Source: Meghimatium bilineatum (lineage: Eukaryota > Mollusca > Gastropoda > Stylommatophora > Philomycidae). From it: DNA of 64,000 nucleotides. The position numbers were made by a program, and so were the translations under genes. The notes beneath the pieces were generated by a model. It made no database searches and had not been told where the DNA came from. It saw nothing but the letters and a program-made list of their open reading frames with translations. The stretch is taken from positions 26,678,528 to 26,742,527 of the forward strand of contig CM067298.1 in NCBI GenBank assembly GCA_034231615.1. The letters run 5' to 3'. Shown here piece by piece: positions 1,743 to 61,841 of the stretch. How positions within the stretch are numbered: the stretch's first letter is position 1; each line of letters opens with the position of its first letter.

Positions 1743-2191
1743 ATGTCCTGATATCTGATGTCTTGACTCACGGTCACGGCGGAGGTGGAGGGCACGGAGG
1801 AGGAGGGCACGGAGGAGGAGGGCACGGAGGTGGCGGGCACGGTGGGGGTCATGGTGGAGGACACGGTGGAGGTCATGGTGGTGGTCATGGAGGCGGCCAT
1901 GGTGGTGGAGGACACGGTGGAGGTCATGGTGGTGGAGGACACGGTGGAGGTCATGGTGGTGGAGGACACGGTGGAGGCCATGGAGGTGGGCACGGCGGCG
2001 GTGGACATGGTGGCGGTGGACATGGTGGCGGCCATGGTGGTGGTCATGGTGGCGGTCATGGGGGTGGTCACGGTGGAGGACATGGTGGTGGAGGACACGG
2101 TGGAGGTCATGGAGGTGGACACGGAGGTGGTGGTCATGGTGGCGGTCATGGGGGTGGTGGACACGGAGGGGGCCACGGACACCACGGTTAA
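1743..2191 (+). CDS. Gly/His secreted protein, gene 1 (exon 2, exon 1 not in window)
   Basis: Exon 2 follows a long T tract and AG at 1741-1742 and is read in phase 1, as in the paralogues. It starts with VLISDVLT, the hydrophobic second half of a signal peptide. The rest is glycine runs of 3-5 broken by single histidines, beginning HGHGGGGG and ending GGGHGHHG before TAA. The predicted mature chain after the T|H cut contains only Gly and His. If exon 1 is 34 nt, as in genes 2-4, the protein is 160 residues and the frame closes exactly. The junction codon would be TAT (Tyr), where the paralogues have TGT or TGC (Cys). Gly/His chains of this kind bind Zn, Cu or Ni in known jaw and beak proteins; a role here is inferred. 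I cannot exclude a pseudogene without exon 1. Confidence 0.72.
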
Positions 2192-2378
2192 TGCTTATAA
2201 ACTTAGTAAGCTTTCACGAATCACATTTAATTATAACCACAATGAGAATATCACATATTTCATAACACAAATACGATATGAACTTCAAAGGTATATACGT
2301 GTATGCATTTGCTTATTATTATTATCTGGTGTACAACATCTACCATCTACGTTTATTAGTGGTTGTCGTTGGTGATAC

Positions 2379-2384
2379 AATAAA
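2379..2384 (+). terminator. Polyadenylation signal of gene 1
   Basis: AATAAA lies 188 nt after the gene 1 stop. The start of the 3' UTR (ggttaatgcttataaa) matches that of gene 2 (ggttaaggcttataaa), which supports a shared transcript end. Confidence 0.6.
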
Positions 2385-2399
2385 GTCTTTCAACAATAA

Positions 2400-3170
2400 T
2401 GATTGAGTACGGCAGTGTAGTATCTATCTGACCAGTGTTCTAATCATGTCTTTGAGATGAGGCAACAAAACCAATATATATCATTGTAGATAGAATTCAT
2501 GCTGTGTTTGTTAAATTCTTTTGTTAAAACTGATTGTGTTGTTAACATATTTTCTGCGGATGTTTTAAATTTCCATATTTTTTACAAGGAACTGAGATCA
2601 CTGCACAAAGCACATTCCCATGTGATCTGCTTGTCATTCCGTCAGTGAGTTAACAGTATATGAACTCAGTCTTCGAATCAGTAGTTGATTGTGGGTTTTG
2701 ATTTTTCAGGAAGAACGGACTTACCCCCCCCCCCCCACAACTATTTAATCACTCTCATCTCTATCAATTTATGCCCATATAGATGTCTCAGCAACATCTT
2801 GATTGTTTTCTATAGTATTCGTGAGTCTGCTTTATTTCAAGTAATTATGTCCATTCTCATCGATCTGTCATACTTATAAATTTACCCGCCATTGAATAAT
2901 TGCCGAAATAGTATACGGCATGCTTCAAGACGTCACTACAAGCGAACATTAAACACAGTAGCTGTATCGGACCCAAAAAATCCGTTTATGTTTGATGTCA
3001 TTGCCTTCAATAACATCAGTAATTAGAATGACATCATCTATCTCTCTTTCTACTTATGTGCTACTTCTCAAATTCCTATACAGTAATAGGATGTAGTTTG
3101 AAGAACGACAGTCGCAGTGTCATCATTTATTGCACGTATTTAATATCTGCGCCTATCTACCAAACATATC
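2400..3170. other. Spacer, nothing recognised
   Basis: AT-rich sequence with a C14-like homopolymer near 2725. No coding or repeat signal that I can support. Confidence 0.5.
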
Positions 3171-3177
3171 TGACTTC

Positions 3178-3330
3178 AGCATGCATTTGTGGTCACTTTG
3201 ACTCTTTATAAAATGACAGTCAACTTCACCACCGAACCTCCGTAATCACTTTGTAAGATATTTATGACAGCTAACAGTGTTGCTATTCGTTGCTTCCCTT
3301 TCAAGTTCCGGCAGTACATAAAACATCATC
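3178..3330 (-). mobile_element. GAA-tailed SINE, 5'-part fragment (diverged)
   Basis: The reverse complement matches the 5' half of the long SINE at 46866-47150: gaaagggaagcaacgaatagcaac, then the zone of aaagagtcaaagtg before the end. Diverged and lacking the GAA tail. Confidence 0.55.
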
Positions 3331-3431
3331 TTTCATATGTTTAATTATAAGTACAGCTTACGTCTGTGAAAATATAGCAGCGTGTCAACGCTGTAAGAAT
3401 AAGTACGGCTTCCAACACTGTAATAAATAAA

Positions 3432-11585: not shown

Positions 11586-12632
11586 ATGCACCGGAATGCT
11601 GAGGGTGTCTACAGTAAAAGAGATGGATACCGCAAAAAATTGGAACTTGAAAATGTCCTCAGTGAAGAACAAGTTAATATATGCTGTATCCAAGAAACAC
11701 ACCTCAGCAGCGACATAGCCTTCAAAATCAGAGGCTACCAGTGCTACCGATCTGACCGAAAGGACAGGCGAAAGGGTGGAATTCTGACACTTGTTAAAAA
11801 CAATATCAGCGCATGTCAGCTGGAAGTATATATGGAAGGGGCAGAATAACACATGCTCCACCTAAAAACAGACAGTGCAGAATTCCATCTCCTGAACTAC
11901 TACTGCCTAAATGATAAACCATTGGCACTAGACACAATTCCAGATAAAGAGAGACTTATGGTGTGTGGTGAATTCAACAGCCACTCTCAGAGCTGGGGCT
12001 ATGATCATATCGACAAGAGAGGTGAGGAACTTGAGAGCTGGCAGGATGAAAATAATCTCATCCTTATTAACCAGCCAGCTGACTCACCACCCTTCTACTC
12101 GAGAGCATGGAACACTACCTCTACACCAGATCTGGCATTCCACTCACCAGGCCTGGAATCGAACATCACACGTGTCGTTGGAAAGCAGCTTGGGGGTAGT
12201 GACCACAGACCAGTATTTCTGGAAATCCACAATGAATTTACCAAGGACAGCAGCACGCTCACTAGGTGGAACTATAAGAGGGCAGACTGGAAAATGTACC
12301 AGCATTTAACCAGTGTTCTAGCTAAGGACATGAACTTGGACAAAGACATCAACAGAGCAGTGAGTGAATTTAATAGATGTATACTACATGCTGCTAGTAA
12401 AACCATACCCAGGGGGGCACGCAAAAACTACAAACCCTACTGGAATGATGAACTGGAAAAGTTGCAAAATGAGATGGAAACATCTAGACAGCAGGCTGAG
12501 AACAGACCTAGCCAAGAACATCCCAACAAATATCAGCAAACAAAGGCTAAATTTCAAAGAGCCAAGTTACAAGCCAGACGGAGTAGCTGGAAAGTAAAAA
12601 ACAGAGTCGCTGAACCCAGAAAGAGATACTAG
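11586..12632 (+). pseudogene. LINE copy A: APE-type endonuclease and linker
   Basis: One frame, split by a single in-frame TAA at 11847-11849. Endonuclease motifs seen in order: CCIQETHL (catalytic Glu), KGGILTLVK, MVCGEFNSHSQSWG (usual form GDFNAH; here GEFNSH), NTTSTPDLAF and GGSDHRPVFLEI (catalytic SDH). A basic linker rich in Gln, Lys and Arg follows, and the frame stops at 12632 before the RT. The product would nick target DNA for reverse transcription. Because the family has only this ORF, the endonuclease would normally be fused to the RT downstream; here a +1 shift separates them. Confidence 0.88.
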
Positions 12633-12639
12633 GAAATTA

Positions 12640-15220: not shown

Positions 15221-15269
15221 AGACATGTTTCAAGTGAACGAAAGAAGAAGAAGAAGAAGGTAAAAGAAC

Positions 15270-18431: not shown

Positions 18432-18465
18432 ATGAAGGTGGCTTTACTTGTTGCATTTGGCCTCT
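18432..18465 (+). CDS. Gly/His secreted protein, gene 2, exon 1 (signal peptide start)
   Basis: ATG opens MKVALLVAFGLC, with the last codon split after its first base by GTAAGT at 18466 (phase 1). The A-rich context caatgaag and the TATA box 100 nt upstream support this start. Exon 1 is 34 nt of coding sequence, exactly the length of exon 1 in genes 3 and 4. Joined to 21151 it gives an uninterrupted hydrophobic signal peptide and a 146-residue protein. The exon is too short to be found by an ORF scan; I recognised it by the shared MKV/MKP start, length and donor site. Confidence 0.85.
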
Positions 18466-18507
18466 GTAAGTACCTGACAACTATGTGATATTGAAATCAA
18501 AGAATAC

Positions 18508-18912
18508 GTTATTTCACAAAGTGTAGTGTAACATTTCATAAAGAGTTGTGTAACATTTCACGAAGTGTAGTGTAACATTTTACAAAGTGTAGTGTAACAT
18601 TTCACAAAGCGTTGTGTAACATTTCACAATGTGCAGTGTAACATTTCACAAAGTGTTGTGTAACATTTCCCGACGTGTAGTGTAACATTTCACAAAGTGT
18701 AGTGTAACAATTCACAACCTGTAGTGTAACATTTCACAAAGTGTAGTGTAACAATTCACAACGTGTAGTGTAACATTTCACAAAGTGTAGTGTAACAATT
18801 CACAACGTGTAGTGTAACATTTCACAAAGGGTAGTGTAACAATTCACAAAGTGTAGTGTAACATTTCACAAAGTGTAGTGTAACAATTCACAAAATGTAG
18901 TGTAACACTTAA
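18508..18912. repeat. 22-bp minisatellite in intron 1 of gene 2, about 18 units
   Basis: Unit acatttcacaaagtgtagtg plus ta, with acaattcacaacgtgtag variants alternating in the right half to give a 44-bp higher-order period. Confidence 0.92.
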
Positions 18913-18974
18913 GTTATTCATTTACTGATCATATCTCAGAACACTGGTCTTATATATAAACTACACATTTGTAA

Positions 18975-19190
18975 ACGAAAGGATGGGGGTGCATACAACA
19001 TGAGACTAGAAACACAAAGAGGAAGAGGAAGACCAAGAAGAATGTGGATTGACGACGTTACCAACGTTTTCAGACGTCGCATTGTTACTATGCATCAAGT
19101 AACCAAAGGAGCCATGACCCGCTCGTCATTCAATTCTGCGACGCCTGGCAACGAATACAGAGAACAGACAATATATAAATAGATGAAAAG
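18975..19190 (+). mobile_element. LINE 3'-end scrap
   Basis: ORF 19000-19182 starts MRLETQRGRGRPRRMWIDDV and ends near a TRSSFNSATPG block. The R-G-R-P-R-x-x-W-x-D-D pattern is the usual C-terminus of RTE-like ORFs. It sits in the gene 2 intron. Confidence 0.6.
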
Positions 19191-19225
19191 GGGGAGGAAG
19201 GGTTTGAAACTTCAAGCCTATTTTT

Positions 19226-19358
19226 TCAGCATGGTATCTGGGTCACTTGTACCAACAAGGGACGGCTTCGCCCAAAACCTACTTAAATGGACCTTAAAAC
19301 GTGCATAGAATCTAAACAGTGTTACTATTCTTTGCTCACTTTTCGGGCTGCAATAATA
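19226..19358 (-). mobile_element. GAA-tailed SINE, 5'-part fragment
   Basis: In reverse complement: gcccgaaaagtgagcaaag, aatagtaacactgttt and gtgacccagataccatgctg, matching the 5' half of the SINE at 46866-47150 but without its tail. Confidence 0.6.
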
Positions 19359-19359
19359 C

Positions 19360-21150
19360 ACATACGAAGTATTTTATTTATTTAATTATACAAAATTTCT
19401 AAAACTGTGAATTTCACAATCAAGTTTTCCTAAAACTGTGAATCTCACGACCAGGTATTTCTAAAACTGTGAATCTTACGACCAAGTTTCACGTTTGTCT
19501 TCTGAAATTAGAACATCTCTTGCATAATGTATGGTTATAGATGAAAAGTTGAGATGGTACTGATGAGTTGCTTCATTGTACTCGGTTCACCTCATATACA
19601 TTCCACTCATATCAACAACCGGCATACCTCTGCCAAGATTCCCATTCATAGCACGTAACTCGATAGCACCAAACCATAATTCCCTAGTGATATCTGAAAA
19701 AATTCACGTTGTAAACAAGACGTAGCAAACAGATCTAAACCCATAACCTCTTGAGCACACATAGAACGTCTTAACCACTACTCCAGCGTTCTATAATAAA
19801 TGCCTTTATCTTGTGTGTATGTATTAGCAAATGTCAGTATTTATTGCTTCAAACACAGTTTACTGAAAGAATGGTGTCTATGTTGAATGTTGGGATTACA
19901 TTGTTATATCTCAAAGGTGAATTTACACATCCAAAATGTACACTTCACGGCTATTACTATGACAACAAAGTATTTATTTCTGTAGCCAATGATAACTCTG
20001 CGGTCTTGAATGGAAAACATGGAGTAACGAAAATAATGAATTGTGTTCATTGGTATGTCTCGAACTTGGAGAGATTGTGTAGATATGAGCATTCTCTTCA
20101 AATGCTACGACACAAGTTGTCAGAATTCTCAATTTTTGACAAGCACTTTTCGTTGTTGTTTCTTTAACAAGGAAAATTGCAATTTCTTTCTATGAATAGG
20201 TCTTATTGTAATACATTTTATGTATTTCATAAATAATAAATCAAAACTATTTTGTGTGGTTTTCCCTTCATCATTCTTGTGCAATAAGTGATATTGTTAT
20301 ATTCTTTACTTAAATCTAACACGAAAACGTTCTCCTTATTATATTATATAGTGTTATGTTCTGTGTTCTTTGTCTTTAGTAGTAAGTAAAATACTGCACA
20401 CTATCTAATTCTTACTATTTGTACATATAATGAAGAAGTGTATCTACAACTTAGTATAATTTAGTACAAATAATAGTTTGAAAGACATCTGAACAGATAA
20501 CATATATGTAGTTGTGTCTGTATCATAATTTGTTAAAGCGGCGGTTGTATACTTTTCCCTGTCGCGAACCTTTTAAAAAAAATATTTTCTCTGTTATTTT
20601 CCAAAAAATTATTTCAATTCATTTCTTTATCTGTGTATGATAGTTTCACAATATTTCTCCGACTTTACCGTTGGTCCCTTGAGAAGAGCAATCGAGCCAA
20701 GTGGGATCTGTTGGCACTATTTTAAGAACCGCTAGCTTAAATAATTGATCGAATGTTATAAATCATTTTAAAATAGTACATTGTAATATTTCAAAGGTTC
20801 ACATTAAATAAATCTACGGATTATTAGTGCATAGCTCCTAAATGTTGCTTAGGAATGCATCTGTATGCAATATATAATAATATATGAAGTAGGTAATATT
20901 TGTCTACTTATGTTATACAGTAAAATATTCGAATATTACGAGTATATTTCTATAACAATTCGTTTATACATAATATTTCATTGAAATCGATCCAATAGTG
21001 TGTGTTAGGATATATGTTCCTATGGGAGTAAGAATTAGCATCATATGATACTGAAAATCTCTCTCTCTAGATATCTCTCACTCTCTCACTAGATATATAA
21101 ACTGTGATGAATACAATTACTGAAATAATTCATGAATATTTATTCTTCAG
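19360..21150 (+). other. Rest of intron 1 of gene 2, nothing recognised
   Basis: AT-rich; an open frame at 19811-20167 (118 codons) has no motif and no splice context that I trust. Ends at tattcttcag, the acceptor of exon 2, preceded by a TC-rich run near 21060-21090. Confidence 0.5.
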
Positions 21151-21557
21151 GTGTTCTTCTTTCTGCTGTCATGAGCCATGGTCATGGTGGCGGGGGACAC
21201 GGTGGCGGTGGACACGGTGGCGGTGGACACGGTGGCGGAGGACACGGTGGAGGACATGGTGGCGGGGGACACGGTGGAGGACATGGTGGAGGAGGACACG
21301 GTGGAGGACACGGTGGCGGGGGACACGGAGGAGGACATGGTGGCGGGGGACACGGTGGAGGACATGGTGGCGGGGGACACGGTGGAGGACACGGTGGTGG
21401 AGGCCACGGTGGCGGACATGGTGGCGGGGGACACGGTGGTGGTGGACACGGCGGTGGTCATGGTGGAGGACATGGTGGTGGACATGGTGGTGGAGGACAT
21501 GGTGGTGGTCATGGCGGTGGCCATGGTGGAGGACATGGCGGTGGACATCACGGTTAA
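21151..21557 (+). CDS. Gly/His secreted protein, gene 2, exon 2
   Basis: Acceptor tattcttcag ends at 21150. Joined to exon 1 the junction codon is TGT (Cys), then VLLSAVMS completes the signal peptide. A cut after Ser fits the -3/-1 rule (Val, Ser). The mature chain of about 126 residues is only Gly and His: it starts HGHGGGG, proceeds mainly as GGGGH and GGGH in alternation, and ends GGGHHG before TAA. CAC mostly precedes a 3-Gly block and CAT a 4-Gly block, so the DNA repeats every 27 bp. No Cys, Tyr or Lys remains for cross-linking, which leaves metal binding by His as the obvious chemistry (inferred). Open frames on the other strand here are shadows. Confidence 0.88.
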
Positions 21558-30548: not shown

Positions 30549-30559
30549 ATCTAGACATG

Positions 30560-39643: not shown

Positions 39644-39677
39644 ATGAAGGTTGCTATTCCTGTGGCAGTTTGCCTCT
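39644..39677 (+). CDS. Gly/His secreted protein, gene 3, exon 1
   Basis: ATG opens MKVAIPVAVCLC in context acaatgaag, with GTAAGT at 39678 and a phase-1 split of the last Cys codon. The coding length is 34 nt, as in genes 2 and 4. The first four residues equal those of gene 2 (MKVA). The exon reads as the front half of a signal peptide; spliced to 41691 the protein is 157 residues. Confidence 0.85.
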
Positions 39678-39925
39678 GTAAGTAACTAACAATGTTAAAA
39701 TATACATATATAAGTGTATGTATATGAACTTAGACATTATACTTAGATATATCATTTATATAATTATTAAGCACTCCAATCCCTCTTCGACCTACATATC
39801 TTTTCTTCATATCTTATGCAAATTTACATTCGCAATTGGAAATCTTCGTAATTTAAGTTAAGTATGTTTTGAGAAAATTAACTGAGGATACATTATTACA
39901 TTTAAGTGATAGGTTTTACCATTTT

Positions 39926-40210
39926 ATAGATCAACATGTCACCCTCAACATTATAGATCAACATGTCACCCTCAACATTATAGATTAACATGTCACCCTC
40001 AACATTATAGATTAACATGTCACCCTCAACATTATAGATCAACATGTCACCCTCAACATTATAGATCAACATGTCACCCTCAACATTATAGATCAACATG
40101 TCACCCTCAACATTATAGATCAACATGTCACCCTCAACATTATAGATCAACATGTCACCCTCAACATTATAGATCAACATGTCACCCTCAACATTATAGA
40201 TCAACACGTC
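39926..40210. repeat. 27-bp minisatellite in intron 1 of gene 3, about 11 units
   Basis: Unit tatagatcaacatgtcaccc plus tcaacat, almost identical in every copy, so recent. Its open minus frame (repeats of MLIYNVEGD) is an artefact of the 27-bp period. Confidence 0.93.
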
Positions 40211-40844
40211 GCCACATTTGTTAAGTTAATGAGATAGTGTATGTCACGTTCAGGCAGCTAAGAATTCCCTTATAAGTCAGGCTAATGATACGTCGAAGAG
40301 AAAATTATTCTGCTTATAATAAAACGACAATAAGTATTATATGTCCATCCTAAATCTGAGTATATAAATAATAATTGGCTAGACATTACTAGTGTGGTAA
40401 CACGAGTAGAATTAAGTCAATCATGTACGCCGTTTGAGCCCTTTTTGAGTATGAAATAATAAGCGAAGTTGAAATTTGAAGAAAATATGTAGATGCAACA
40501 AACATTCTTGTCACGAGAAAGGGGCTGCAGGTAAACTACGGCACTATTTTGTGTGAGGGTTTGATCCACTATCTCCCCCCCCCCTTGTAAACATCATGTC
40601 AATAATTCACGTCCTCCTCGCACCCCACCCTTCCCCCGTCCCCGCCCACCCTAAAGTATTATTATTATTTTTTGGAGCAGGAAAACATGCAAAATAATTA
40701 CATAATTTATTTCAGATATGTAAGAAAAATGTAGACAGTCACAGAATGTAATAGTGTAATAAGTGTATAAAAACCCGTTTAGTGGCGTCAACTTTTTCAG
40801 TACCTCCTCTTCGCCATGTCAACAACTGTCGGCTTTTAACTTCC

Positions 40845-41275
40845 CTAGAGAATTAGAGCGTTAACATATATCAATCTGTATGACTTTCCTAGAGAATTAG
40901 AATGTTAAAATACATCAATCTGTATGACTTCCCTAGAGTATTAGAATGTTAACATATATCAATCTGTATGACTTTCCTAGAGAATTAGAATGTTAACATA
41001 CATCAATCTGTATGACTTCCCTAGAATATTATAATGTTAACATCTATCAATCTGTATGACTTCCCTAGTGTATTATAATGTTAACATCTATCACTCTGTA
41101 TGACTTCCCTAGAATATTATAATGTTAACATCTATCAATCTGTATGACTTCCCTAGAATATTAGAATGTTAACATCTATAAATCTGTATGACTTTCCTAG
41201 TGTATTAGAATGTTAATATCTATCAATGTATCTGACTTCCGTAGAGCATTATAACGTTAACATATATTATAAAAG
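40845..41275. repeat. 44-bp minisatellite in intron 1 of gene 3, about 10 units
   Basis: Unit tcaatctgtatgacttccct plus agagaattagaatgttaacatcta, moderately diverged. Confidence 0.9.
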
Positions 41276-41690
41276 TGGCTTTTGATTCGTTACTGTGCTA
41301 TAAATAACACACTGTTTACATTTTTAACTAGCCAACGTCACGGATTTTCGTGTAACACCAATGAAAATAATGACTGCCGTGACGTCACATCTCTAGAATC
41401 ACTGAGTTCAACTCTAGACACAGACGAACTTATGTATAATTTGTTTCTTTTCTAATTTACATATTTTTTACAATTTTCCTATGATTTGTACTGAGCAAAC
41501 ATTATTTCTGCGCCTATTAAAAGTAGCGATGGCGACATTCATCGATCTTCCCAATATATGTTGTCCCATTAGTTCCACTTCACTGCTGTTTTTAGTTGTG
41601 TAAAGTGAACAACTTGTGCATTTGTAATGACTTTGTTTCTCTATTTTTTTTAAATAATGTATTCACTAATATTTGTTTTTACCATTTCAG

Positions 41691-42130
41691 GTATAATGGT
41701 GTCTTTGGTCGTGAGCCATGGTCATGGTGGAGGAGGGCACGGCGGGGGACACGGTGGAGGAGGGCACGGCGGGGGACATGGCGGAGGAGGGCATGGTGGA
41801 GGAGGACACGGTGGAGGACATGGCGGAGGAGGACACGGTGGAGGGCATGGCGGAGGAGGGCACGGTGGAGGACATGGCGGAGGAGGACATGGCGGAGGAG
41901 GACATGGCGGAGGAGGACATGGCGGAGGAGGACACGGTGGAGGACATGGTGGTGGAGGACATGGTGGTGGTGGTCACGGTGGAGGACATGGTGGTGGTGG
42001 TCACGGTGGAGGACATGGTGGTGGTGGTCACGGTGGAGGACATGGTGGTGGTGGTCACGGTGGTGGACATGGTGGTGGTGGCCACGGTGGAGGACATGGT
42101 GGTGGTGGAGGACATGGTCACCACGGTTAG
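41691..42130 (+). CDS. Gly/His secreted protein, gene 3, exon 2
   Basis: Acceptor accatttcag ends at 41690. The junction codon TGT (Cys) is followed by IMVSLVVS, and the predicted cut after Ser again has Val at -3. The mature chain of 137 residues is only Gly and His, starts HGHGGGG and ends GGGGGHGHHG before TAG. At 41960-42100 a 27-bp unit (ggtcacggtggaggacatgg plus tggtggt) recurs about five times, evidence of recent expansion by unequal exchange. At 41880-41940 a 15-bp unit (catggcggaggagga) repeats instead. Secretion is predicted; function is unknown, with metal binding or material formation as inference from composition. Confidence 0.88.
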
Positions 42131-48545: not shown

Positions 48546-48547
48546 AG

Positions 48548-48651: not shown

Positions 48652-48685
48652 ATGAAACCTGGCATTTTGATCGCAATTTGCGTCT
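48652..48685 (+). CDS. Gly/His/Tyr secreted protein, gene 4, exon 1
   Basis: ATG opens MKPGILIAICVC in context aaaatgaaa, split in phase 1 by GTAAGT at 48686. Length 34 nt, as in genes 2 and 3. The nearest downstream acceptor with the family's second signal-peptide half is at 57346, so I join them across an 8660-nt intron. No other family exon lies between. That pairing is inferred from phase, order and the exact 34-nt length; an unseen exon cannot be excluded. Confidence 0.78.
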
Positions 48686-48689
48686 GTAA

Positions 48690-49300
48690 GTATATATGGA
48701 ATTTTGAACGCTCATACTTGAATCAGGGACATTACTTAGACTCATCAAACACCTTCGTTTCGCTATAACCTTGTACTTCACCATGTTCTTTCATTGAATT
48801 AATATTAATATATATTTCTAATCTGATATCCGTTCGCATTTTTCTTTATATCTGTCGTTTAGTTAAGGGGACAAAGCTACCCAGAAACAGGTCAAAATGC
48901 GTTTGTTTAGGTATATTATATTTTTTTCAGTACTCCAGTCTTCTTTCAACCACAGTATGAATTTTGTGACTAAGGAAAGCAGTTTGTTAGATACAAGCTT
49001 TGAAACAGGCCTAAGGTTCATGCAAAGATGAATTAAAATATTAAAATGACTTATGTTTTTCGTTACAACCATTACTTTGCATCTTTACATCATTACACTG
49101 GTGCGTTTTAGCTCTCCTTTTCATTAGTATAATATAATGAACACTCTCTTGTAATTTCATACACGTTTGTGATATTTAAAAAATAAAATCTTGCTTTGTG
49201 ATGATAGGTTGAGTGGTAAACTTAGTAAAAACGTAAGTTTTATGATAGTAGGTATACTAAGAAAAAAACGGACTTTGTGAAAATAGATTTTAAATTAACA
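48690..49300 (+). other. Start of gene 4 intron, nothing recognised
   Basis: AT-rich, no repeats. Confidence 0.45.
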
Positions 49301-49309
49301 CTATGCCGA

Positions 49310-50585
49310 ATGATATTGATGTTCAGAGATCTGATAAGAAACACCAGAAGACTGGAGAAACGTAAAAATCATTCCCATATGGAATAAAAAAGGCAGTAAG
49401 AGAGATAGCACACAATACAGAGGGATATCCTTACTTAGCCTCACAGGAAACATTTTTAACAAAATATTAGAACAACGATTACGATCATACATTGAATCAT
49501 AACTTAAAAACACCCGAATGGGTTTCTGTTAGAACAACAGCTGTACGGATGATATCTTTACACTTAGACAACTAAGAGCCATAGAAAACAACAGAATTAT
49601 ACATCGCACTCGTCGACCACGAAAAGGCCTTCGACAGAGTGGACAGACAACAACTATGGAAAACAGTAAGAGCAAATGCAGGAGTGTCCAATAAGTTCCA
49701 AATACAATCATGAGTTCGCCAGGGGTGTGTCTTATTCCCTCTACCTTTTATAACTTATAACGACCACATCTGTAAACTAACAAGTACCAACGAAGAAGAT
49801 AATATAAAAGACAAATTGAACGAACTACTCTTTGCAGACGACCAAGTACTAATGGCGACAACAGAAGAACAATTACAATAACATATGAACAGACTCTACA
49901 CAACATGCCAAAATTCAACATGAAGATTAATATGGAGAAGACCAAAATAATGGCAATAGCAAAGAAAGAAAGAAATATCACTATCTCCATAGATAACAAA
50001 CACTTTAAACAAATGAAGGAGTTCACTTATTTAGGAAGCATTATAACTAGTGAAGGGAAAAACAGTAAAGAGATACAAAATAGATGCAACAAAACATACC
50101 GGATCCTGGGACAGATGGAATATATTTTTTAAGAAAAAAATGTAAAATTAGACACGGAAGTTGCATTATACAAGACTTATTATCCCATCATTGTGCTGCC
50201 AGTGCCAAGCTTGGACAACGACATCACAATACAAAAGAAAAATAGTGACAGCAGAAATGGCATGTCTACAAAGAATACTCGGAGTGTCATAAACATATAC
50301 AATTAGAAACGATAACATCAGGCACATAACAAAAAATACCACTATTGGAACACATAAAAAGACAATAGATCAATTATTTCTCACACGCTTCCACACTACC
50401 AACAGACAGCATGCCACAGATGGCCATGACACATAGACATACCGGCTATAAAATCCGAGGCAGACCATGTAGAGGATGGATCACAGAAATAAAAGAAGAC
50501 ACAAGAATAATATAAATAACCAAATGGCCAGAGGGTGTCCGACAAAGTGGATGGTGCCGCAGTAACCTAATGAACAAATAGTAAT
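49310..50585 (+). mobile_element. Non-LTR LINE fragment, second family (copy 1)
   Basis: Broken frames give NKFQIQS, RQGCVLFPLPFITYNDHICK, LNELLFADDQVLMATTEEQL (the FADD box), INMEKTKIMAIAKKER and FTYLGSIITSEGKNSKEIQN. The copy at 58480-60465 aligns with it. Both flank or lie in the gene 4 region. Clade not resolved; RTE-like by the FADDQV and YLGSII motifs. Confidence 0.8.
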
Positions 50586-50679
50586 GCAAAATGATGTAAA
50601 AAGGTTACTAAAACACTTACCTAGCCTATTAATAAAAATATATTTTTAAGAAAAAAAACAAAAAACATACAATAAAACT

Positions 50680-52430
50680 AAACAGGACAATTCTCAACGT
50701 ATCGGCTCAAATTGAACCTTTTTCAAGAGACAAACAACAGAAAACGACAAAATAAAAAAATAAATAGATGTCTATATTTCATCAAGCCCTCGTCTCCATA
50801 ATAGCGCAGGGATGGCAACGCATCTAGTCAAGGTGAAAATGCGTGCATTCATTATAAACAAACCGAAAGTGGGAAATTAGAGACACTATAGATGAGTGCA
50901 AGAATAATAAAAGAAAAAGATAAGAAAAATACCCCTTTTGTCACTCTATCAGACAGGCAGGTTTTAAGAACATAGTCACAACAGGCACGACTGAAGGGAA
51001 CAGAGACAGATGGGGACGTGAGAAAATATTCATGTGACAACCTAGCAAGGCTTGGAAACAACGATCCTGATAACAATACTGTGAACAGAGAACCATGGTC
51101 ACCTACGCCAACAAGAATGGCATATGACAATGATAGATGAGTAATGATGAGGTTGTGTGGTGGTGGGGTGAGTGGGTTTGGGGAAGGAAGGATAGAAGAA
51201 GAATCAACATTTGAAAACGCATGGAATGAATGTGAAACCAAATATAGACATAAACATATATATAAAACCAAACCTAAACATACATAGAAATGTAAACACA
51301 CACCAAGAGTCAAGAAATAAACACATAACAAGATGGACACAGATGTGTGAAGGATACCCACACAAAATGCACAGGCATGTAAATGTATCCACACACAGGA
51401 AAGGGCTCACACCAGAATAGGTATACACATTGACACAGAATGGAGATACGTGCATTAACATAAAAAATCGCTCACATAAATATACATATATATATGTATA
51501 CACAAATATGAACATTCATGCACATAAACACTTTCTCGTATAAATAATAACATGAACATTCATACACATAGAAACATATACATATATTAATGTAAATATA
51601 AACGTTCGTTCACATAAAGATAATGCTATAACAACTGCATATGTATACATACAAATGTGTGGCCCAAAGTAATTGTGTGGATACATAGAACCATGTAAAA
51701 CGAAATGCATATACAAATAACTATATATGTGTGGGCACCCATCGAGAGACAACTGCAATAAAAACGAGGAAATCAAAATCTAAATATGTAAATGATTTAA
51801 CAATAACAAAATGGCAGAGTACAAAATAATCACATATTGACATACACAAACGAAAGAAGACATAAAGGAATTATATAGAAGAACGGCAAACACAAAAATA
51901 ATAATTATTCACGAAAGTGTACAAAGACAAATAATTACAAGAATCAGTGCAATACGGGAGTAGAGGGTATAAAGAAAAGGTGGGTAACTCAAACAAAACG
52001 GTGATTAATGTTCATTCCGTTTGGTTGCAAGACTCCCAAATGACAAATGAGACGATATTCCAAGGACTGACGTTGCCGGTCACCGGTATAACAACGTAAC
52101 AAACCGGTTACAGAGACATCAGAGCTACCATGATGTGACGGGCTGTTAAAATGATTAGCCACTGGGGAGTCACGATGATTCGTGATATCTCTCAAATGTT
52201 CGGCGAATCTATCAGCTAAACGTCTACCAGTCTCACCAATATACTTCATATCACAACGCTTACATATGATAGAGTATATTAAGTTACGGGACACACATGA
52301 AAAAGATAGATATAGATCTGATTCTACTACTAAACAAAATACAAACATAAACACTGATCCTCCTACAAGAATACGTGCCACTCTCCCCTCGGTCAGAAAT
52401 ACAAATTCAACAATTAAATTAAGTAATGAA
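50680..52430 (-). mobile_element. Penelope-like element fragment (GIY-YIG end and long 3' region)
   Basis: The minus-strand frame 52486-51989 ends with NLIYSIICKRC, MKYIGETGRRLADRFAEHL, SPVANHFNSPSHHGSSDVSV and LICHLGVLQPNGMN: a GIY-YIG endonuclease with its Cys pair, Tyr-Ile-Gly motif and Arg-rich helix intact. The RT is missing. About 1.3 kb of AC-rich non-coding sequence follows before a ctcttgaaaaaggttcaatt motif and the end near 50680. 5'-truncated. Confidence 0.8.
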
Positions 52431-52634
52431 TGACAGAAGTGATTCTGTACATGAATCTGATACATTATTAAGTGGAAACAATACATTGTAATAGCTTGAA
52501 ATGTGTTTTTGAAATTAATCTATATGGTAATAATAATATGGCATGCAATCCTTAGAAAGAAGTACACAAATATTGTCAGAAATGTTTGTTGAAAATGCAG
52601 TGTGCACGCGATTTTCTTGTGATCAATATCAATA

Positions 52635-53166
52635 TCAATAAACCCATAACCCTTCAGGGTCGTAGGGGTACCACATTGGATGCTTCAGCACACAGAGTCC
52701 TCCAGCGAATTCTATCGTCAGCGATGCGGATGAGTGTGGAAATATCTAGCCCTGTCCATTCCTTGATGTTGTCTGTCCATGTCTTTATTTGTCCTCCTCT
52801 GCTTCTTCCACCCTCGACAGTTCCCTGCAGTATTGTTTTTGACAAGGAATCGTGCCTGCATACATGTCCGAACCATGCTAGTTTTCGTCGTTTCACTATT
52901 GAAAGCAATGGCTCCTGGACACCTGCACACATCTCTACTTTATTTCTTACGTACACATTGGTCTTATGTTCCCTATAGGAAATTCGTAGAATTCTTCTGT
53001 AGCATTTATACTCGAAAGCCTGTAATCTTCTCTCCATGTCCGCAGTGAGTGTCCAACTCTCACAACCATACAACACAACAGAAAGCACCAGCGACCTATA
53101 CAGTTTGATTTTCACTCCAACACTGATGTTGCTTTTCCAAATCACAGTTAGCCTTGACAATGACGC
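52635..53166 (-). mobile_element. RTE-type LINE 3' end
   Basis: A 168-codon open frame (53160-52654): MSRLTVIWKSNISVGVKIKL, LYGCESWTLTADMERRL, EYKCYRRILRISYREHKTN, RRKLAWFGHVCRHD, and RSRGGQIKTWTDNIKEWTG. Classic RTE-type C-terminus, 5'-truncated at 53166. Nearly identical to the fragment at the left end of the window, so probably young. Confidence 0.85.
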
Positions 53167-54168
53167 TAAAAAAATGTTTTCTTGTGATACCGTGTTCGGA
53201 AATTATGCACATGCGTTCAACATCGCCATAGCTTAGTTCTCAACTCAGGGAATCAATGATTCTAGCTCATTCTCTGAGTTATTGTCAAATTAAGTAATAC
53301 AAATTAATTTGTAAAAGTGGTACTTTTTGACATCTCCTAAAACCATAACTGTAAAAGATGCAACTCTGTGCAGTCTATTTTGAAGGGACAATATAGAACA
53401 ATATTATTTGGAAAAATTAAGTGTTTAAAATGAAAAACAGGGAAAATGAAGTGCTTAGAATGAAAAACACAGGAAAAATCACATGCGGAATTATACACAT
53501 TTTTGAAATATGAATTTTTAATATTTGCATTATTACATTTTACATGAAAATCTGTAATGCTAAATTTGAATAAATTATGTCTATAGGTTAGTCATTTATA
53601 CAGCAGCTGTCCAAATTTGATATAGATATGTCATTAAAAAAATCGTTACAACATTTAAAGAAAACTGCACCTTGTTCTGATTAGCTGTGCCCTGTTAAGT
53701 CAAACTCTTCTACAGAACAGATCAGAACACATCTTCATATATAGAACGTATCAAAACTTTTAGAACTGCTTCTACAGAACAGATCAAAACATTCAGAACT
53801 CTTCCTCTTCTTTAGAGCAGATCAGAGCAGATCATAACTTTAAAAACTCGTATTTTTCTACAGAACAGATCAAAACATTCAGAACTCTTCTTCTTCTACA
53901 GAACAGTTACACACTTTCAGACATCTTCTTCTAAAGAATAGATCAGAACTCTTCTTCTACGGAATAGATCAGAACGCTTCTTCTTCTACACAATATATAC
54001 TGATAATGAGTTATTCATGATTTTCTGAATCGACGGCTATACACTCCGGGTATTCCCATATATGTTTCGTCTCGTTCAGCAGATAGCGAAGTGTATGTAT
54101 GTGAATATTTCCCGTAGCCCCTTGATTGTATTTATCTTTGCTTGTTTAGCCCTCTTGTATCTTTACTG
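53167..54168 (+). other. Gene 4 intron, with irregular repeats
   Basis: At 53695-53995 a loose unit (cttctacagaacagatca, aaacattcagaactcttc) recurs with variable spacing. Otherwise AT-rich without signal. Confidence 0.55.
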
Positions 54169-54631
54169 GAAGTGTTGAAACCATCATTGTGACATGTTTA
54201 ATCCAGCCCGTTTCTTTACTGGAAGTGTTGAAACCATCATTGTGATATGTTTCATCCAGCCCGTTTCTTTACTGGACATGTTGAAACCATCATTGTGATA
54301 TGTTTAATCCAGCCCGTTTCTTTACTGGAAGTGTTGAAACCATCATTGTGAAATGTTTAATCCAGCCCGTTTCTTTACTGGATATGTTGAAACCATCATT
54401 GTGAAATGTTTAATCCAGCCCGTTTCTTTACTGGATATGTTGAAACCATCATTGTGATATGTTTAATCCAGCCCGTTTCTTTACTGGAAGTGTTGAAACC
54501 ATCATTGTGAAATGTTTAATCCAGCCCGTTTCTTTACTGGACATGTTGAAACCATCATTGTGATATGTTTAATCCAGCCCGTTTCTTTACTGGACATGTT
54601 GAAACCATCATTGTGATATGTTTAATCCACA
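54169..54631. repeat. 53-bp minisatellite, about 9 units
   Basis: Unit ccatcattgtgatatgttta, atccagcccgtttctttact, ggaagtgttgaaa; variants ggacatg and ggatatg alternate. Confidence 0.93.
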
Positions 54632-54744
54632 TTATATCTTTGTTCTTCTATGAATGTAATAGAAGATAATGTTTCTTGTGTCTTTGCTAGTGACATCATT
54701 CCTTATTGTGATTTTCTTACTGCTTTCCATTGAGCAATTGTTTA

Positions 54745-55103
54745 CACACGTGACATGTTGGTAACTTGTTAACACACGTGACATGTTGGTAATTTGTGTA
54801 CACACGTGACATGTTGGTAATTTGTGTACACGCGTGACATGTTGGTAATTTGTGTACACACGTGACATGTTGGTAACTTGTTAACACACGTGACATGTTG
54901 GTAATTTGTGTACACACGTGACATGTTGGTAATTTGTGTACACACGTGACATGTTGGTAATTTGTGTACACACGTGACATGTTGGTAACTTGTTAACACA
55001 CGTGACATGTTGGTAATTTGTGTACACACGTGACATGTTGGTAATTTGTGTACACGCGTGACATGTTGGTAATTTGTGTACACACGTGACATGTTGGTAA
55101 TTT
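54745..55103. repeat. 28-bp minisatellite, about 13 units
   Basis: Unit acatgttggtaatttgtgta plus cacacgtg; a gtaacttgttaac variant recurs about every fourth or fifth unit. Minus-strand ORFs across it are artefacts. Confidence 0.93.
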
Positions 55104-55776
55104 TCTTAGGTTCTCTAGTTGGTGTTCATTTCTGATATTACTAATATAATATTTCTATGTTGTTGTTTTTTTTGTGGTTTTTGATTTAAATCTCGACGAT
55201 TTTCGAGAAACTTCATTATTTTCTATGTGCAGTGTGGTGATTTCTGGGAACTTACTTTCACATTCTGCAGACATTAGCTTTTAGCTTAATGAAATGCATG
55301 TGGGAAAAAAGCCTTCTATTCACTTGGGGTATATACTGGTATAAAGATGATAGTTATAGCGCGAAGTATGTTTTCCGCGTGAATATCAAGGTGCTTCAGA
55401 TGTTCTCATTGGTTAGCTAATACATTTAAATGTGTGGTTGACAAGGGTTTCCATTTCATTGACAATTCTTTTAAGTGAAGTCAACAATCTGTCAAGGTAT
55501 TCATCTTGAACATGTTTTTGACGTTGAACTTTTCATCTAGGTAGCGTTTAATAATGATGTATCATTTATTGTTATATCGTTTGACGGTTTATATCGGTAG
55601 TGTTTTCTAATGATGTGTCATTTACTGCCATGACAGTGTTCTAGCGCATTCTATAGCATCGTGACAGACGGGTACACCTACAGCTATACTACATCGTTTT
55701 GTCCGGAAAACATGATGATGATGAATATGATGATCTGACGAATAACTAACTAACTAACTATATCATCTTGCCTTGG
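55104..55776 (+). other. Gene 4 intron, nothing recognised
   Basis: AT-rich; two similar gatgtgtcattta/gatgtatcattta pieces near 55555 and 55613. Confidence 0.45.
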
Positions 55777-56082
55777 TCATTGGTTAATGAAACCAAGGTT
55801 ATATAACTGTCCAGACAGATCTATGTTCCATTGGTTAAAGAAACCAACGTTATATAACTGTCCAGACAGATCCATGTTCCATTTGTTAAAGAAACCAACG
55901 TTATATAACTGTCCAGACAGATCCATGTTCCATTGGTTAAAGAAACCAACGTTATATAACTGTCCAGACAGATCCATGTTCCATTGGTTAAAGAAACCAA
56001 CGTTATATAACTGTCCAGACAGATCCATGTTCCATTGGTTAAAGAAACCAACGTTATATAACTGTCCAGACAGATCCATGTT
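55777..56082. repeat. 51-bp minisatellite, 6 units
   Basis: Unit ccattggttaaagaaaccaa, cgttatataactgtccagac, agatccatgtt. 51 is a multiple of 3, so both strands read open 17-residue repeats; the frames have no start context or splice signal of note. Confidence 0.93.
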
Positions 56083-56283
56083 TCATAACTATCTTCGCTT
56101 GAGATTCGACGAAGATAAATACCTTACTAGAAATGCTAGATGTCATATATTCTACTTATTCTGTGTTCTCTCTCAAACCCCTGAAGATGAATGGGATGTA
56201 GTTCGGAGAACGGAATGTACTTTCATGGTTTACAGCTTAGTTGTAATACTTGCATTTTTCAACCTTACATATATGTGTTTATT

Positions 56284-56640
56284 CTAAGAATTTCCTATAG
56301 GGGACATAAGACAAATTTGTACGTAAGAAATAAAGTAGAGATGCATGCTTGTGTACAAGAACCATTGCTTTCAATAGTGAAACGACGAAAACTATCATGG
56401 TTTAGACATGTATGCAGACACAATGACTTGTCAAAAACAATAGTGCAGGGAGCCGTCGAAGGGGGAGAAGCAGATGAGGGCAAATAAAGAAATGGACAGA
56501 CAACATAAAAGGATGGACAGGACAACATTTTTTCCTCACTCCTTCGCATTGTTGAAGATAGAAATCGCTGGAGGACTGTTTGCTGAAGCATCCATTGTGG
56601 TACCCCTACGCCCCTGATGGGTTACGGGATATTTTATTAA
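56284..56640 (+). mobile_element. RTE-type LINE 3' end
   Basis: LRISYRGHKTNLYVRNKVEM, EPLLSIVKRRKLSWFRHVCR and a 3' UTR ending ggtacccctacgcccctgat match the reverse complement of 52635-53000. 5'-truncated, with a break after the GGEADEGK region. Confidence 0.85.
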
Positions 56641-56654
56641 TTTATTTCATTGAT

Positions 56655-56805
56655 ATGTGTTCAGCATGGCTTGTGGGTCCCTTTGACCCTTTATGAGATG
56701 GGACAGCCAGCACCACACCAAAAATCTTCTTCATCGCCTCTTACGACACTCAAGGAGGGTAAACTGTATTTCTTTTCTTACCTCCAATTTCAGGCCCCGA
56801 CACTG
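56655..56805 (-). mobile_element. GAA-tailed SINE, 5' part
   Basis: Reverse complement: gtgtcggggcctgaaattgg, gtcgtaagaggcgatgaaga and gctgtcccatctcataaagg, as in 46866-46990. Confidence 0.7.
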
Positions 56806-57222
56806 TACATGTGGATTTCATACATTGATAACATCGTATACAACCGAGTAAAGGTGTTCTCAAAGCATATAATTTAATAAATATATGGATATATATCAAA
56901 ACAGATCACAAGGTAGTGCGTTCTACCGTAACAGGCTAACTGACATACACTCATAATAAGGTCTTTCTCAAGAAAAGTACAGTGAAATAGAGAATAAATC
57001 CTTTAGAATAGTAATATCACAAAGGGACTAGGCTGCAGAAAATTTAACAACAGAAAAATTAAAGGTAGCAGCGAATAACGTACACACATACCTCACGTGA
57101 TATTGTAGAGAAGCAAATTAAAATCATGAGGAATGAGAACGAAATAAAACAATTATGACTGAAAACCAATGGAATGACAAAATAGCAGCAATGGCAACAC
57201 AAAAAGCAGTCTCATTTATGAG

Positions 57223-57302
57223 TGATTGTCGTAATATAGATTGTCGTAATATAGATTGTCGTAGTATAGATTGTCGTAATATAGATTGTCGTAATATAGG
57301 TA
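57223..57302. repeat. 15-bp tandem repeat, 5 units
   Basis: Unit gattgtcgtaatata, just before exon 2 of gene 4. Confidence 0.9.
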
Positions 57303-57345
57303 CACAACGTTCATGTGATCTGAATTATGTTTACTTTTCTTTCAG

Positions 57346-57578
57346 GCATTCTGGTATCTAGTGTCATGAGTTATGGTGGTCATGGCGGAAGTGGCCATGG
57401 GGGTGGTCATGCTGGAGGATACTATGGTGGACACAATGGTGGACACAATGGTGGACATCACGGAGGACATGGTGGAAAATACGCTGGTCATGGTGGTGGT
57501 CGAGGAAAGTATGGATGGGGACATGGCGGTAGATACGGTAGTGGTCATGGTGGTCACGCCGGCGGACATCATGGATAG
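57346..57578 (+). CDS. Gly/His/Tyr secreted protein, gene 4, exon 2
   Basis: Acceptor ttactttctttcag ends at 57345. The junction codon TGC (Cys) is followed by ILVSSVMS and a predicted cut before Tyr. The mature part is about 68 residues: YGGHGGSGHGGGHAGG, a YYGGHNGGHNGG stretch, then a second half with Lys, Arg, Tyr and Trp (GGKYAGHGGG, RGKYGWGHGG, RYGSGHGG) and the family ending GGHHG before a TAG. It is the most varied member and the only one with aromatic and basic residues, more like known Gly-rich cuticle or antimicrobial peptides. With exon 1 the protein is 88 residues. The regular 27-bp DNA repeat of the other genes is lost. Function unknown. Confidence 0.85.
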
Positions 57579-58385: not shown

Positions 58386-58564
58386 GTGTTTAATTTTTGC
58401 ATTTTAATGCAATCTTGCTTTGTGTTTTGTTTCACACTGTGTGTATTAATTGATTGTTTTAGATTAAACAATAGAAGATATATATGAGCCAACAGAAAAA
58501 TAAATGGCGAAAACTGTAATGCACTAAAAGTACCGAAGCAAATAATGGAAAGATGGAATCAACA

Positions 58565-58806: not shown

Positions 58807-59385
58807 CAACAATATTTCAAAGAACTACTGAACTTGAAGGAAGGAGAAGTAGACACAACAATAAACATTACAGCAACAAACCTACAACCTCATATACTAC
58901 TATCGGAAATAGAAAATACAATAAACAAAGCACCAATAAACAAAGCAGCAGGCTCTGATAACATACAAACTAAACTTATCAAAACAACAGCAGAGAGCGG
59001 GAAACATTGGCTACACGGAGTTTTCAATGTTATATGGAAGAAACAAGAAACACTAGAAGACTGGAGAAACGTGACAATCCTTCCCACATGGAGGTGAAAA
59101 GGCAGAAAGAGACATTGGACAAATTACAGAGGCATATCCTTACTAAGCAACACAAGAACATTTGTTAACAAAATATTAGAAGAACGATTACGATCATACA
59201 TTGAATCACAACTTAATTTCACCCAAATGGGTTTCCGTAAGAACAAAAGCGGTACGGATACTATCTTCACATTTAGGCAACTTACAGAAAGAGCCGCAGA
59301 AAACAACAAAGTATTATACATCGCATTCGTCGACCAAGAAAAGACCTTCGACAGAGTAGACAGACAACAATTATAGAAAACAATA

Positions 59386-59530
59386 TCAATATACGGAGTA
59401 CCAGAACATTTAATCAATATACGGAGTACCAGAACATTTAATCAATATACGGAGTACCAGAACATTTAATCAATATACGGAGTACCAGAACATTTAATCA
59501 ATATACGGAGTACCAGAACATTTAATCAAT
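59386..59530. repeat. 28-bp tandem repeat inside a LINE, 5 units
   Basis: Unit tcaatatacggagtaccaga plus acatttaa, encoding IYGVPEHLI once in the ancestral LINE; 28 is not a multiple of 3, so the expansion broke the frame. Confidence 0.92.
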
Positions 59531-60465
59531 ATATGCAGGGACATTTATACTAATAGCCAATGTGAAATAAGAACAAATGCAGGAGTGTCCAATAAGTTCC
59601 AAATCCAATCAGAGGTTTGCCAAGAATGTGTCCTATCCCCTCTACATTTTATAACATATATCGACCACATCTGTAAACTAACAAGTACCAACGTAGATAA
59701 TAAAAAAGAAAAACTGAACGAACTACACAGTTTAGACGACCAAGTACTAATAGCGACATCAGAAAAACAATTCTAACAACATATGAACAGATTACACACA
59801 ACATGTCAAAAATTCATCATGAAGATTAATATTGACAAGACCGAAATAATGGCAATAGCAAGAGAAAGAAAGAAACATTACTATCTCTATCGATAATAAA
59901 CACCTTAAGCAAAGGCGTTTACTACTTAGGAAGCATTATATCCAATAAAGGGGAAAACAGTAAAGAGATACAAAACAGATGCAACAAAACATACCAGATC
60001 CTAGGACAGATGACACGTATTTTTAAGAACATAAATCTAAACATAGACACTAGATTTGCATTATATAGACTATTATTATCCTATCCCATCACTGCACTAC
60101 CAGTGCAAAACCTGGAAAATGACATCACAACACAAAAGAATAGTGACAGCAGAAATGACATGTGTACACTGAATACTCGGAGTATCATTAAGGAGATAAA
60201 ATTAGAAACGATAACATGAGACACATAACTAAAACAATAACGCTATTGGAACACTTCAAAAGACAACAGATCAATTGGTTTTCATATTACCAACAGACAG
60301 CACTCCACAGATGGCCGTGACATCACGACTATAAAGCAGAAGCAGTACATGTAAAAGATGGATCACAGAAATGAAAGAAGCAACAGGAACACACAAAAAT
60401 GCCATCTTCGGAGAACTCTTCTACGCCAGACGCCTCAAGGGAAATAAGGGCCACGGCGTATAGAT

Positions 60466-61150
60466 AGATGTTTAAACAGAAACCAATTAATATAGAGAAA
60501 ATATATGATAGCCGTTACAGGTGTAGTAAATTTGCCCGGTAAGAAAGAGAAAAATAATAATAATACATATCGTAAGGGTCGTCTAAGAATGTTGGGAGTG
60601 ACATAATTATCTATCACAAGATCTCCGCAGCCATGCAGCTTGGTAAATCCGTGTATGAACTGCTGGAATGGAGTTAACCATATTATCTACAGTATGTCTC
60701 CTTGATATTACATGAACAACAAACAAAGCAATCTCTGGGGAAAAAAAGAAAACAACAATGTGTGTATGTATATGTGTGTGTGAAGCTGGTTTCATTGCAC
60801 TATACATCCATTGTTGGTGTACGTGCAGCTGGTTTCCTTGCACCATACATCCCTTGTGAATAGAACAGTAATGTCAGACTTATTAATGCTCATAATTATA
60901 ATAACATTGTGCAAATAAAGTAAAGCTCTGCCACCACGCACAACGAACAAGAATAAGGGTAATAAATTATAACAAATAAAGTTAATACCAGTATCAGAAT
61001 ATAACTATTGTTACCATTACCACGACAAACATTTCTAGTCTCGTATGTAAAGATAGAACTTCAACACAAGCACAATCGCAACAGTTACACTGACACACAT
61101 TTCTTTCAGACACATGACCCAAACACTTGTGTAAGTATATTAATATACAC
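60466..61150. other. Spacer, nothing recognised
   Basis: A 50-bp duplication (agctggtttcattgcac / agctggtttccttgcac) near 60782-60852. No gene seen. Confidence 0.5.
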
Positions 61151-61156
61151 TTTATT
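61151..61156 (-). terminator. Polyadenylation signal of gene 5
   Basis: AATAAA on the minus strand, 294 nt after the stop; similar distance to those of genes 2-4. Confidence 0.55.
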
Positions 61157-61449
61157 ATTGGTTAGCTTGTTTTCATCAAAGTTCACCAACTACAGTTCAG
61201 AATTAAGTTTAACAATTCTTTTCATACTCAATGACTAAAATAGCAACCAATAAGAGCTCAAACACAAGACATTGATATGTATTGCATACTGGTCAACAGA
61301 AACAAAATTGTTTAAGCTTCATGTTAGTACGGCCATATTTGTATGGGATGACCTACGTCAAGTTATAATAATTGAGATGTGGTGGGTGATCCACTATTAA
61401 CGAAGCAGTTTGTACACAATATCTATTCATGTCTAAAGAATTCAACATT

Positions 61450-61841
61450 TTATCCATGGTGTCCGCCACCGTGGCCACCACCACCATGTCCTCCACCGTG
61501 ACCACCACCACCATGTCCTCCACCATGACCACCACCACCATGTCCTCCGCCGTGACCACCACCACCATGTCCTCCGCCGTGACCACCACCTCCGTGTCCA
61601 CCACCACCATGTCCTCCTCCATGTCCACCACCGCCATGTCCTCCTCCGTGTCCACCACCGCCGTGTCCTCCTCCGTGTCCACCACCGCCGTGACCTCCTC
61701 CGTGTCCACCACCGCCGTGTCCTCCTCCGTGTCCACCACCACCGTGTCCTCCTCCGTGTCCACCGCCACCATGTCCCCCACCGTGACCTCCTCCGTGTCC
61801 ACCACCACCACCGTGACCCATGACACTAACAATCAGAACAC
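61450..61841 (-). CDS. Gly/His secreted protein, gene 5, exon 2 (minus strand)
   Basis: On the minus strand the acceptor cttctgttttctag ends at 61842. The exon continues in phase 1 with VLIVSVMG, the family's second signal-peptide half. The mature chain is only Gly and His, starts HGGGGGHGGG, alternates GGGGH and GGGH and ends GGGHHG before TAA. A 34-nt exon 1 would make a 141-residue protein with the frame closed. No exon 1 of the standard type (MK..., 34 nt, GTAAGT) is visible from 61842 to the right edge; it may lie outside, or be the atypical candidate at 63064-63106. The gene is tail-to-tail with gene 4. Confidence 0.75.

Follow-up and report, generated by a model that had tools for sequence, protein, structure and literature searches.

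Can an animal gene family spell out secreted proteins with only two amino acids, glycine (Gly) and histidine (His), and if so, what might such proteins do? This question is raised by a 64,000-nt stretch of contig CM067298.1 of the slug Meghimatium bilineatum (hereafter the window), which carries a cluster of five predicted Gly/His genes numbered 1 to 5. A six-frame scan of these 64 kb for open frames having at least 18 Gly or His per ~25 residues identified exactly five Gly/His exons, those of genes 1-4 on the plus strand and that of gene 5 on the minus strand, where exon 2 runs from 61841 down to 61450.

Two-residue composition and codon variation

Genes 1, 2, 3 and 5 have predicted mature parts of 140, 126, 137 and 121 residues, respectively, in which all of the 524 codons specify either Gly or His. 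The predicted products are thus small, Gly-dominated proteins (Gly 75.7-76.9%, His 23.1-24.3%) with 28-34 His per mature chain, and that of gene 2 was calculated to have a mass of 9.6 kDa and an isoelectric point (pI) of 7.67, with 76% Gly and 24% His. At the DNA level, each of these four genes draws on the full set of four Gly and two His codons. The repeat units are mainly H-G3 and H-G4, often alternating to give HGGGHGGGG (9 residues, 27 bases), and the spacing of His is 4 or 5 in 108 of the 120 intervals. The C-terminus of all five proteins, including that of gene 4, is His-His-Gly.

Such arrays could also be regarded as non-coding, G-rich minisatellites that are open by accident, with the exon-1 matches described below having arisen by chance, and the window indeed contains 83 tandem-repeat rows (overlapping rows counted), some unrelated arrays likewise yielding long open frames. 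The variation among the repeat units, however, was confined in all four arrays to third codon positions. When counted as the fewest changes linking the distinct DNA versions of a unit, the 56 HGGG units (26 versions) require at least 27 changes and the 52 HGGGG units (23 versions) at least 25, exclusively at third positions, and the DNA of the HG (9 units) and HGGGGG (3 units) repeats likewise varies there only. If all single-base changes were equally likely, the chance of purely third-position changes would be ~1e-15 for H-G3 and 3e-14 for H-G4, figures that serve as a guide only, since they assume independent changes, which are not assured under repeat slippage and gene conversion. Furthermore, the longest two-amino-acid run elsewhere in the window, searched in six frames with the five exons masked, was 10, and the genes repeatedly show the same elements, namely an acceptor with its leader half, a stop, an exon 1 and a TATA box. 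The non-coding minisatellite explanation, which we regard as very improbable, was thus discarded on the codon-position evidence.

Gene models and the split leader

The first-pass annotation of this DNA had proposed a five-gene cluster of secreted proteins whose leader is interrupted by an intron in phase 1. For genes 2, 3 and 4, we recovered at the same positions the 34-nt coding exon 1 ending at GTAAGT, as well as the exact closure of the spliced frames, which have lengths divisible by 3, contain no internal stop and predict proteins of 146, 157 and 88 aa, respectively. All five exon 2s were also found to open with the second leader half ahead of the Gly/His run, as had been claimed (Table 1). 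As judged from the sequence, the intron of genes 2-4 splits codon 12 after its first base (phase 1), and the acceptors of their exon 2s are preceded by ...TTCAG.

Table 1. Features of the five Gly/His genes, in positions of the window
Feature	Position	Strand	Description
Gene 1 exon 2	1743..2191	+	leader half VLISDVLT, 140 Gly/His-only residues, stop
Gene 2 TATA-like box TATATAAA	18332..18339	+	TATAAA 98 nt 5' of ATG
Gene 2 exon 1	18432..18465	+	34 nt, MKVALLVAFGL + 1 nt, donor GTAAGT
Gene 2 predicted intron	18466..21150	+	phase 1, 2685 nt; 22-bp minisatellite at 18511-18907
Gene 2 exon 2	21151..21557	+	leader half VLLSAVMS, 126 Gly/His-only residues, stop
Gene 3 TATA-like box TATATAAA	39536..39543	+	TATAAA 106 nt 5' of ATG
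Gene 3 exon 1	39644..39677	+	34 nt, MKVAIPVAVCL + 1 nt, donor GTAAGT
Gene 3 predicted intron	39678..41690	+	phase 1, 2013 nt; contains minisatellites
Gene 3 exon 2	41691..42130	+	leader half IMVSLVVS, 137 Gly/His-only residues, stop
Gene 4 TATA-like box AGTATAAA	48546..48553	+	TATAAA 104 nt 5' of ATG
Gene 4 exon 1	48652..48685	+	34 nt, MKPGILIAICV + 1 nt, donor GTAAGT
Gene 4 predicted intron	48686..57345	+	phase 1, 8660 nt; contains minisatellites and mobile-element fragments
Gene 4 exon 2	57346..57578	+	leader half ILVSSVMS, 68-residue divergent Gly/His-rich region, stop
Gene 5 exon 2	61450..61841	-	leader half VLIVSVMG, 121 Gly/His-only residues, stop

The pattern ATGAAR-N28-GTAAGT occurs three times on the two strands of the window, each time upstream of a Gly/His exon. 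In 100 dinucleotide shuffles, its mean count was 0.04, and no shuffle contained it three times. Pairwise comparison of exon 1 among genes 2-4 gave 27, 19 and 22 identical bases out of 34, and the TATAAA boxes of these genes fall in common alignment columns. Between genes 2 and 3, the promoter together with exon 1 shows a 68.75% match across 272 nt, as expected for duplicated genes; the upstream region of gene 4 was unmatched to those of genes 2 and 3 at the same threshold. The first AATAAA downstream of the stop lies at 188, 341, 291, 283 and 294 nt in genes 1 to 5, respectively, in AT-rich DNA whose chance rate was not set against these distances. The leader-half pattern was found five times in the six frames of the window, all exactly at the five acceptors, although its uniqueness shows only the absence of further copies of that form, since the pattern was derived from the five leaders themselves.

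The leaders of genes 2, 3 and 4 start with Met-Lys and have 8-residue hydropathy peaks of 2.9, 3.2 and 3.5, respectively. With regard to the -3/-1 rule for signal-peptide cleavage, all five leaders have V as the -3 residue of the predicted cut and S, T or G as the -1 residue. A signal peptide of ~20 residues, cut after V-x-S (or T, G), is predicted. The proposed cluster of secreted-protein gene models with a leader split by a phase-1 intron is therefore supported for genes 2-4, where exon 1, donor, frame and TATAAA agree, whereas genes 1 and 5 offer only a compatible frame.

The further suggestion in the first-pass annotation that this layout is undescribed did not stand, since animal secretory genes interrupted in phase 1 close to the signal-peptide cleavage site are already known (PMC1626468). 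These genes agree with genes 2-4 in intron phase and region, although the Gly/His intron lies somewhat earlier, at codon 12 within the hydrophobic stretch and ~8 residues ahead of the predicted cut. For Drosophila, the same paper lists 88 signal-peptide genes interrupted at position 5 by a phase-0 intron, which is the sole intron in 80 of them, with 38 annotated as cuticle constituents (PMC1626468). What is unusual in the slug genes is the purity of the predicted product, its mature region consisting in four of them of two amino acids, together with its multiplication in one cluster, and not the intron layout.

An exon 1 of the 34-nt kind was found neither in the 1742 bases upstream of gene 1 nor in the 2159 bases upstream of gene 5. 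A strict scan of the window with the donor GTAAGT returned only the three known exons, and a relaxed scan gave eight rows, comprising the three known exons, three rows on the minus strand, one on the plus strand and one candidate for gene 5. The three minus-strand rows and the plus-strand row were rejected, as they do not lie upstream of any exon short of a first exon. The gene 5 candidate (43 nt, 63106-63064, minus strand, donor GTAAGA) would be in frame with exon 2 over a 1222-nt intron; it agrees with the other exon 1s in 12-15 of 34 bases, lacks a TATAAA in the 150 nt upstream, and was not adopted, being possibly a chance match. Exon 2 of gene 1 begins with A, unlike the G of the other genes, so that joining it to an exon 1 whose last base is T would produce Tyr at the junction instead of Cys, and its leader half contains an Asp; given these two changes, gene 1 may be less well kept.

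The missing first exons, the changes in gene 1 and the dissimilarity of the sole gene 5 candidate to the other exon 1s would all agree with genes 2-4 being intact and genes 1 and 5 being broken or exon-1-less copies retained through duplication. We nevertheless consider this quite unlikely. The predicted introns of genes 2-4 span 2685, 2013 and 8660 nt, so that it is unsurprising to find no exon 1 for either gene 1 or gene 5 in the window, whose edge alone could account for this, and the Gly/His frames of both genes are free of any other codon. We infer splicing for genes 1 and 5 as well.

On sequence grounds, gene 4 is a divergent relative of the other four genes, having a similar leader and an identical ending. 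In its mature region, 18 of the 68 residues are neither Gly nor His, including 6 Tyr, 2 Lys, 2 Arg and 1 Trp.

Mobile elements and repeats around the genes

A reverse transcriptase of the long interspersed nuclear element (LINE) type is located between genes 2 and 3 (24116-24979) and, across 90% of its length, shares 75% identity with a protein from the land snail Bradybaena similaris. The search with this enzyme gave 450 matches, and among the 120 listed, the six carrying an organism name are all from gastropods (Bradybaena 1, Littorina saxatilis 3 and Elysia marginata 2). Taken by itself, this one element makes a gastropod source likely, although mobile elements may pass from one lineage to another. 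One LINE-type element is present in three copies, at 12431-15259 (plus strand), 23193-25959 (plus strand, with the reverse transcriptase domain) and 28564-30549 (minus strand, with RNase H). They are 94-96% identical where aligned, which points to probably recent activity between the Gly/His genes.

The intron of gene 4 contains, at 51989-52486 on the minus strand, an open reading frame (ORF) with a GIY-YIG endonuclease domain scoring 22.7 bits against a Pfam cut-off of 22.6, which we take to be probably part of a Penelope-like element. The same intron holds an inverted pair, 86% identical, at 52643-52992 and 56281-56628; an ORF overlapping the former copy resembles the tail of a reverse transcriptase and has no Pfam match. 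A dispersed repeat at 49667-50498, also in this intron, recurs between genes 4 and 5 at 59568-60380 with 82% identity. A segment upstream of gene 3 (39016-39188) and one in the 3' part of the gene 4 intron (56927-57096) are 66% similar, a likeness that may reflect either a dispersed repeat or the trace of an old duplication, and a weaker match of 60% links the introns of genes 2 and 4.

Minisatellites of differing unit length occur in each of the three predicted introns (18511-18907; 39924-40210 and 40839-41267; 54160-55103 and 55778-56086). Another array, at 7479-9311, consists of ~80 copies of a 23-bp unit; because this length is not divisible by 3, the array is open in several frames and gives rise to spurious minus-strand ORFs of up to 696 aa. 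Searches of the window gave no Rfam family at gathering scores and no transfer RNA.

Proposed function and comparison with known Gly/His systems

The most likely reading, which we hold with moderate confidence, is that the cluster encodes a small family of secreted proteins that make up an extracellular, metal- and pH-switched material. Removal of the signal peptide would release a chain having His at every 4 or 5 residues along a flexible Gly backbone, which is expected to be disordered. The evenly spaced His residues would likely coordinate zinc or copper; near neutral pH, their imidazoles would be uncharged and could bridge metal ions between chains. A soluble secreted protein might thereby gel, harden or form fibrils after a change of pH or metal content, the product being an extracellular material or secretion. 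Gene 4, with its six Tyr and few Lys and Arg, may contribute covalent cross-linking. More tentatively, we suggest that this may be a gastropod gene family that writes whole secreted proteins in Gly and His, kept pure by strong selection, for use as a metal- and pH-switched building material, such as a glue, tooth, dart or mucus scaffold, that arose independently of the worm-jaw proteins.

Relatives of the predicted proteins were sought among 5.8 billion proteins, the five-protein alignment being scored only against the 7992 candidates with the most shared words. The gene 4 protein gave six weak matches with E values up to 1 (best, 0.02), and the alignment gave 183, of which 120 were listed. 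The best (P0127, E = 1e-7) is Gly/His-rich, but its leader differs and it ends in a tail of non-Gly/His sequence. The 29 matches inspected have a short Gly/His part amid other residues; by name, two come from insects and one from a plant, and most of the remainder appear bacterial. Among the 126 matches listed, the longest Gly/His-only run was 41 residues, compared with 121-140 in genes 1, 2, 3 and 5, and none showed the leader pattern of the Gly/His genes. Since the search was restricted to exact-word candidates and predicted proteins, unannotated snail genes of the Gly/His kind would escape it. Among the titles and abstracts listed from the open-licence literature, none described a two-residue Gly/His protein family in a mollusc.

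Several of these and other observations weigh against the proposed material. The database matches are weak and appear driven by composition, the spliced products of genes 2 and 4 hit no Pfam family, and a PDB search with gene 4 gave no match. For genes 1 and 5, the window offers no 34-nt exon 1, and the mature parts of genes 1, 2, 3 and 5 contain no Tyr, Lys or Cys and hence offer no obvious covalent cross-link. Moreover, a study on the Gly/His analogue shepherin I states that Cu(II) gave no fibrils with this peptide and that its spaced His residues bind metal less stably than those of a contiguous-His peptide (PMC10698721).

The main rival to the material reading, possible though somewhat unlikely in our estimation, is that the genes encode Gly/His-rich antimicrobial, mainly antifungal, peptides of mucus or haemocytes, which would harm fungal cells by metal withdrawal or by metal-driven fibrils. 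The small secreted size and the multigene cluster agree with such a role. Holotricin 3, an 84-aa peptide of like composition class (with 64.1 in a column that we read as % Gly), is listed with C. albicans as its target (PMC5031766), and shepherin I is described as antifungal when loaded with Zn (PMC10698721). Two database matches, P0140 and P0212, are named holotricin-3-like; their E values, however, are only 0.003 and 0.14 in a composition-biased search, and the leader pattern is absent from them as from the other matches listed. Gly-rich peptides are also reported from the mucus of Cornu aspersum, one of those tabulated opening with His and a Gly run, but the Cornu peptides are described as rich in Gly, Leu, Val and Pro, and the word "histidine" does not appear in the main text of that paper (PMC11206429). 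In addition, the predicted pI of gene 2 is not strongly cationic. The metal-switched material and the antifungal peptide share the same chemistry and may be compatible with each other.

Secreted His/Gly chains could alternatively serve as metal buffers or metalloprotease inhibitors instead of a material, a role proposed for the poly-His-poly-Gly (pHpG) peptides of vipers, which chelate Zn and inhibit MMP-1 (PMC12108757). The number of His residues in the predicted mature chains of genes 1, 2, 3 and 5 would suit this role. Going by their name, however, the pHpG peptides have His and Gly in blocks, in contrast to the regularly spaced His found here, and the lower stability of metal binding by the spaced-His shepherin I argues against a buffer as well. 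We consider this explanation unlikely.

If expressed, the four genes 1, 2, 3 and 5 would give natural proteins whose mature part consists of two amino acids over more than 120 residues, with none of the 524 codons departing from this rule. They would represent a near-minimal natural polymer for the histidine-metal chemistry whose motif is known from hard worm jaws and antifungal peptides, and, if the reading is true, a Gly/His polymer of this kind would be easy to produce and test. The whole family could be overlooked by gene prediction in which a first exon of only 34 nt is passed over and low-complexity sequence is masked.

Among known systems, shepherins I and II of Capsella bursa-pastoris resemble the slug proteins in consisting of nearly only Gly and His, and shepherin I (19 Gly, 8 His and 1 Tyr) undergoes structural change, fibril formation and antifungal activity upon Zn(II) binding (PMC10698721). 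By the count of shepherin I, however, the shepherins are plant peptides of 28 residues built of GGH repeats, whereas the slug proteins are products of an animal multigene cluster having 121-140 residues in HGGG/HGGGG units. Common descent of the two is not expected. His content and secretion are known features of holotricin 3 and tenecin 3. As a class, these small, Gly-rich, antifungal beetle peptides are like the slug proteins (PMC5031766); the holotricin-3-like matches P0140 and P0212 have other residues and other leaders. Among the 126 matches listed, no kinship with Gly/His antimicrobial peptides beyond composition was found, the named peptides themselves not having been aligned.

The nereid jaw proteins Nvjp-1 and Nai11527 are structural, coordinate metal, are rich in His and Gly, and have related transcripts. 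Nai11527, which comes from the jaw tip of Nereis aibuhitensis and carries a signal peptide, is given as ~53 kDa (partial), with 29% Gly and 16% His (PMC13120676). By size and composition, and without alignment, the slug proteins, as exemplified by the much smaller and more Gly-rich product of gene 2, fall outside this jaw-protein type. The multi-tasking protein of Glycera jaws consists mostly of Gly plus His and binds Cu. Glycera jaws use His-Cu complexes (PMC6477608). With composition as the only relation found, the best reading of this analysis is that the slug family may work in the manner of the worm-jaw or antifungal Gly/His proteins.

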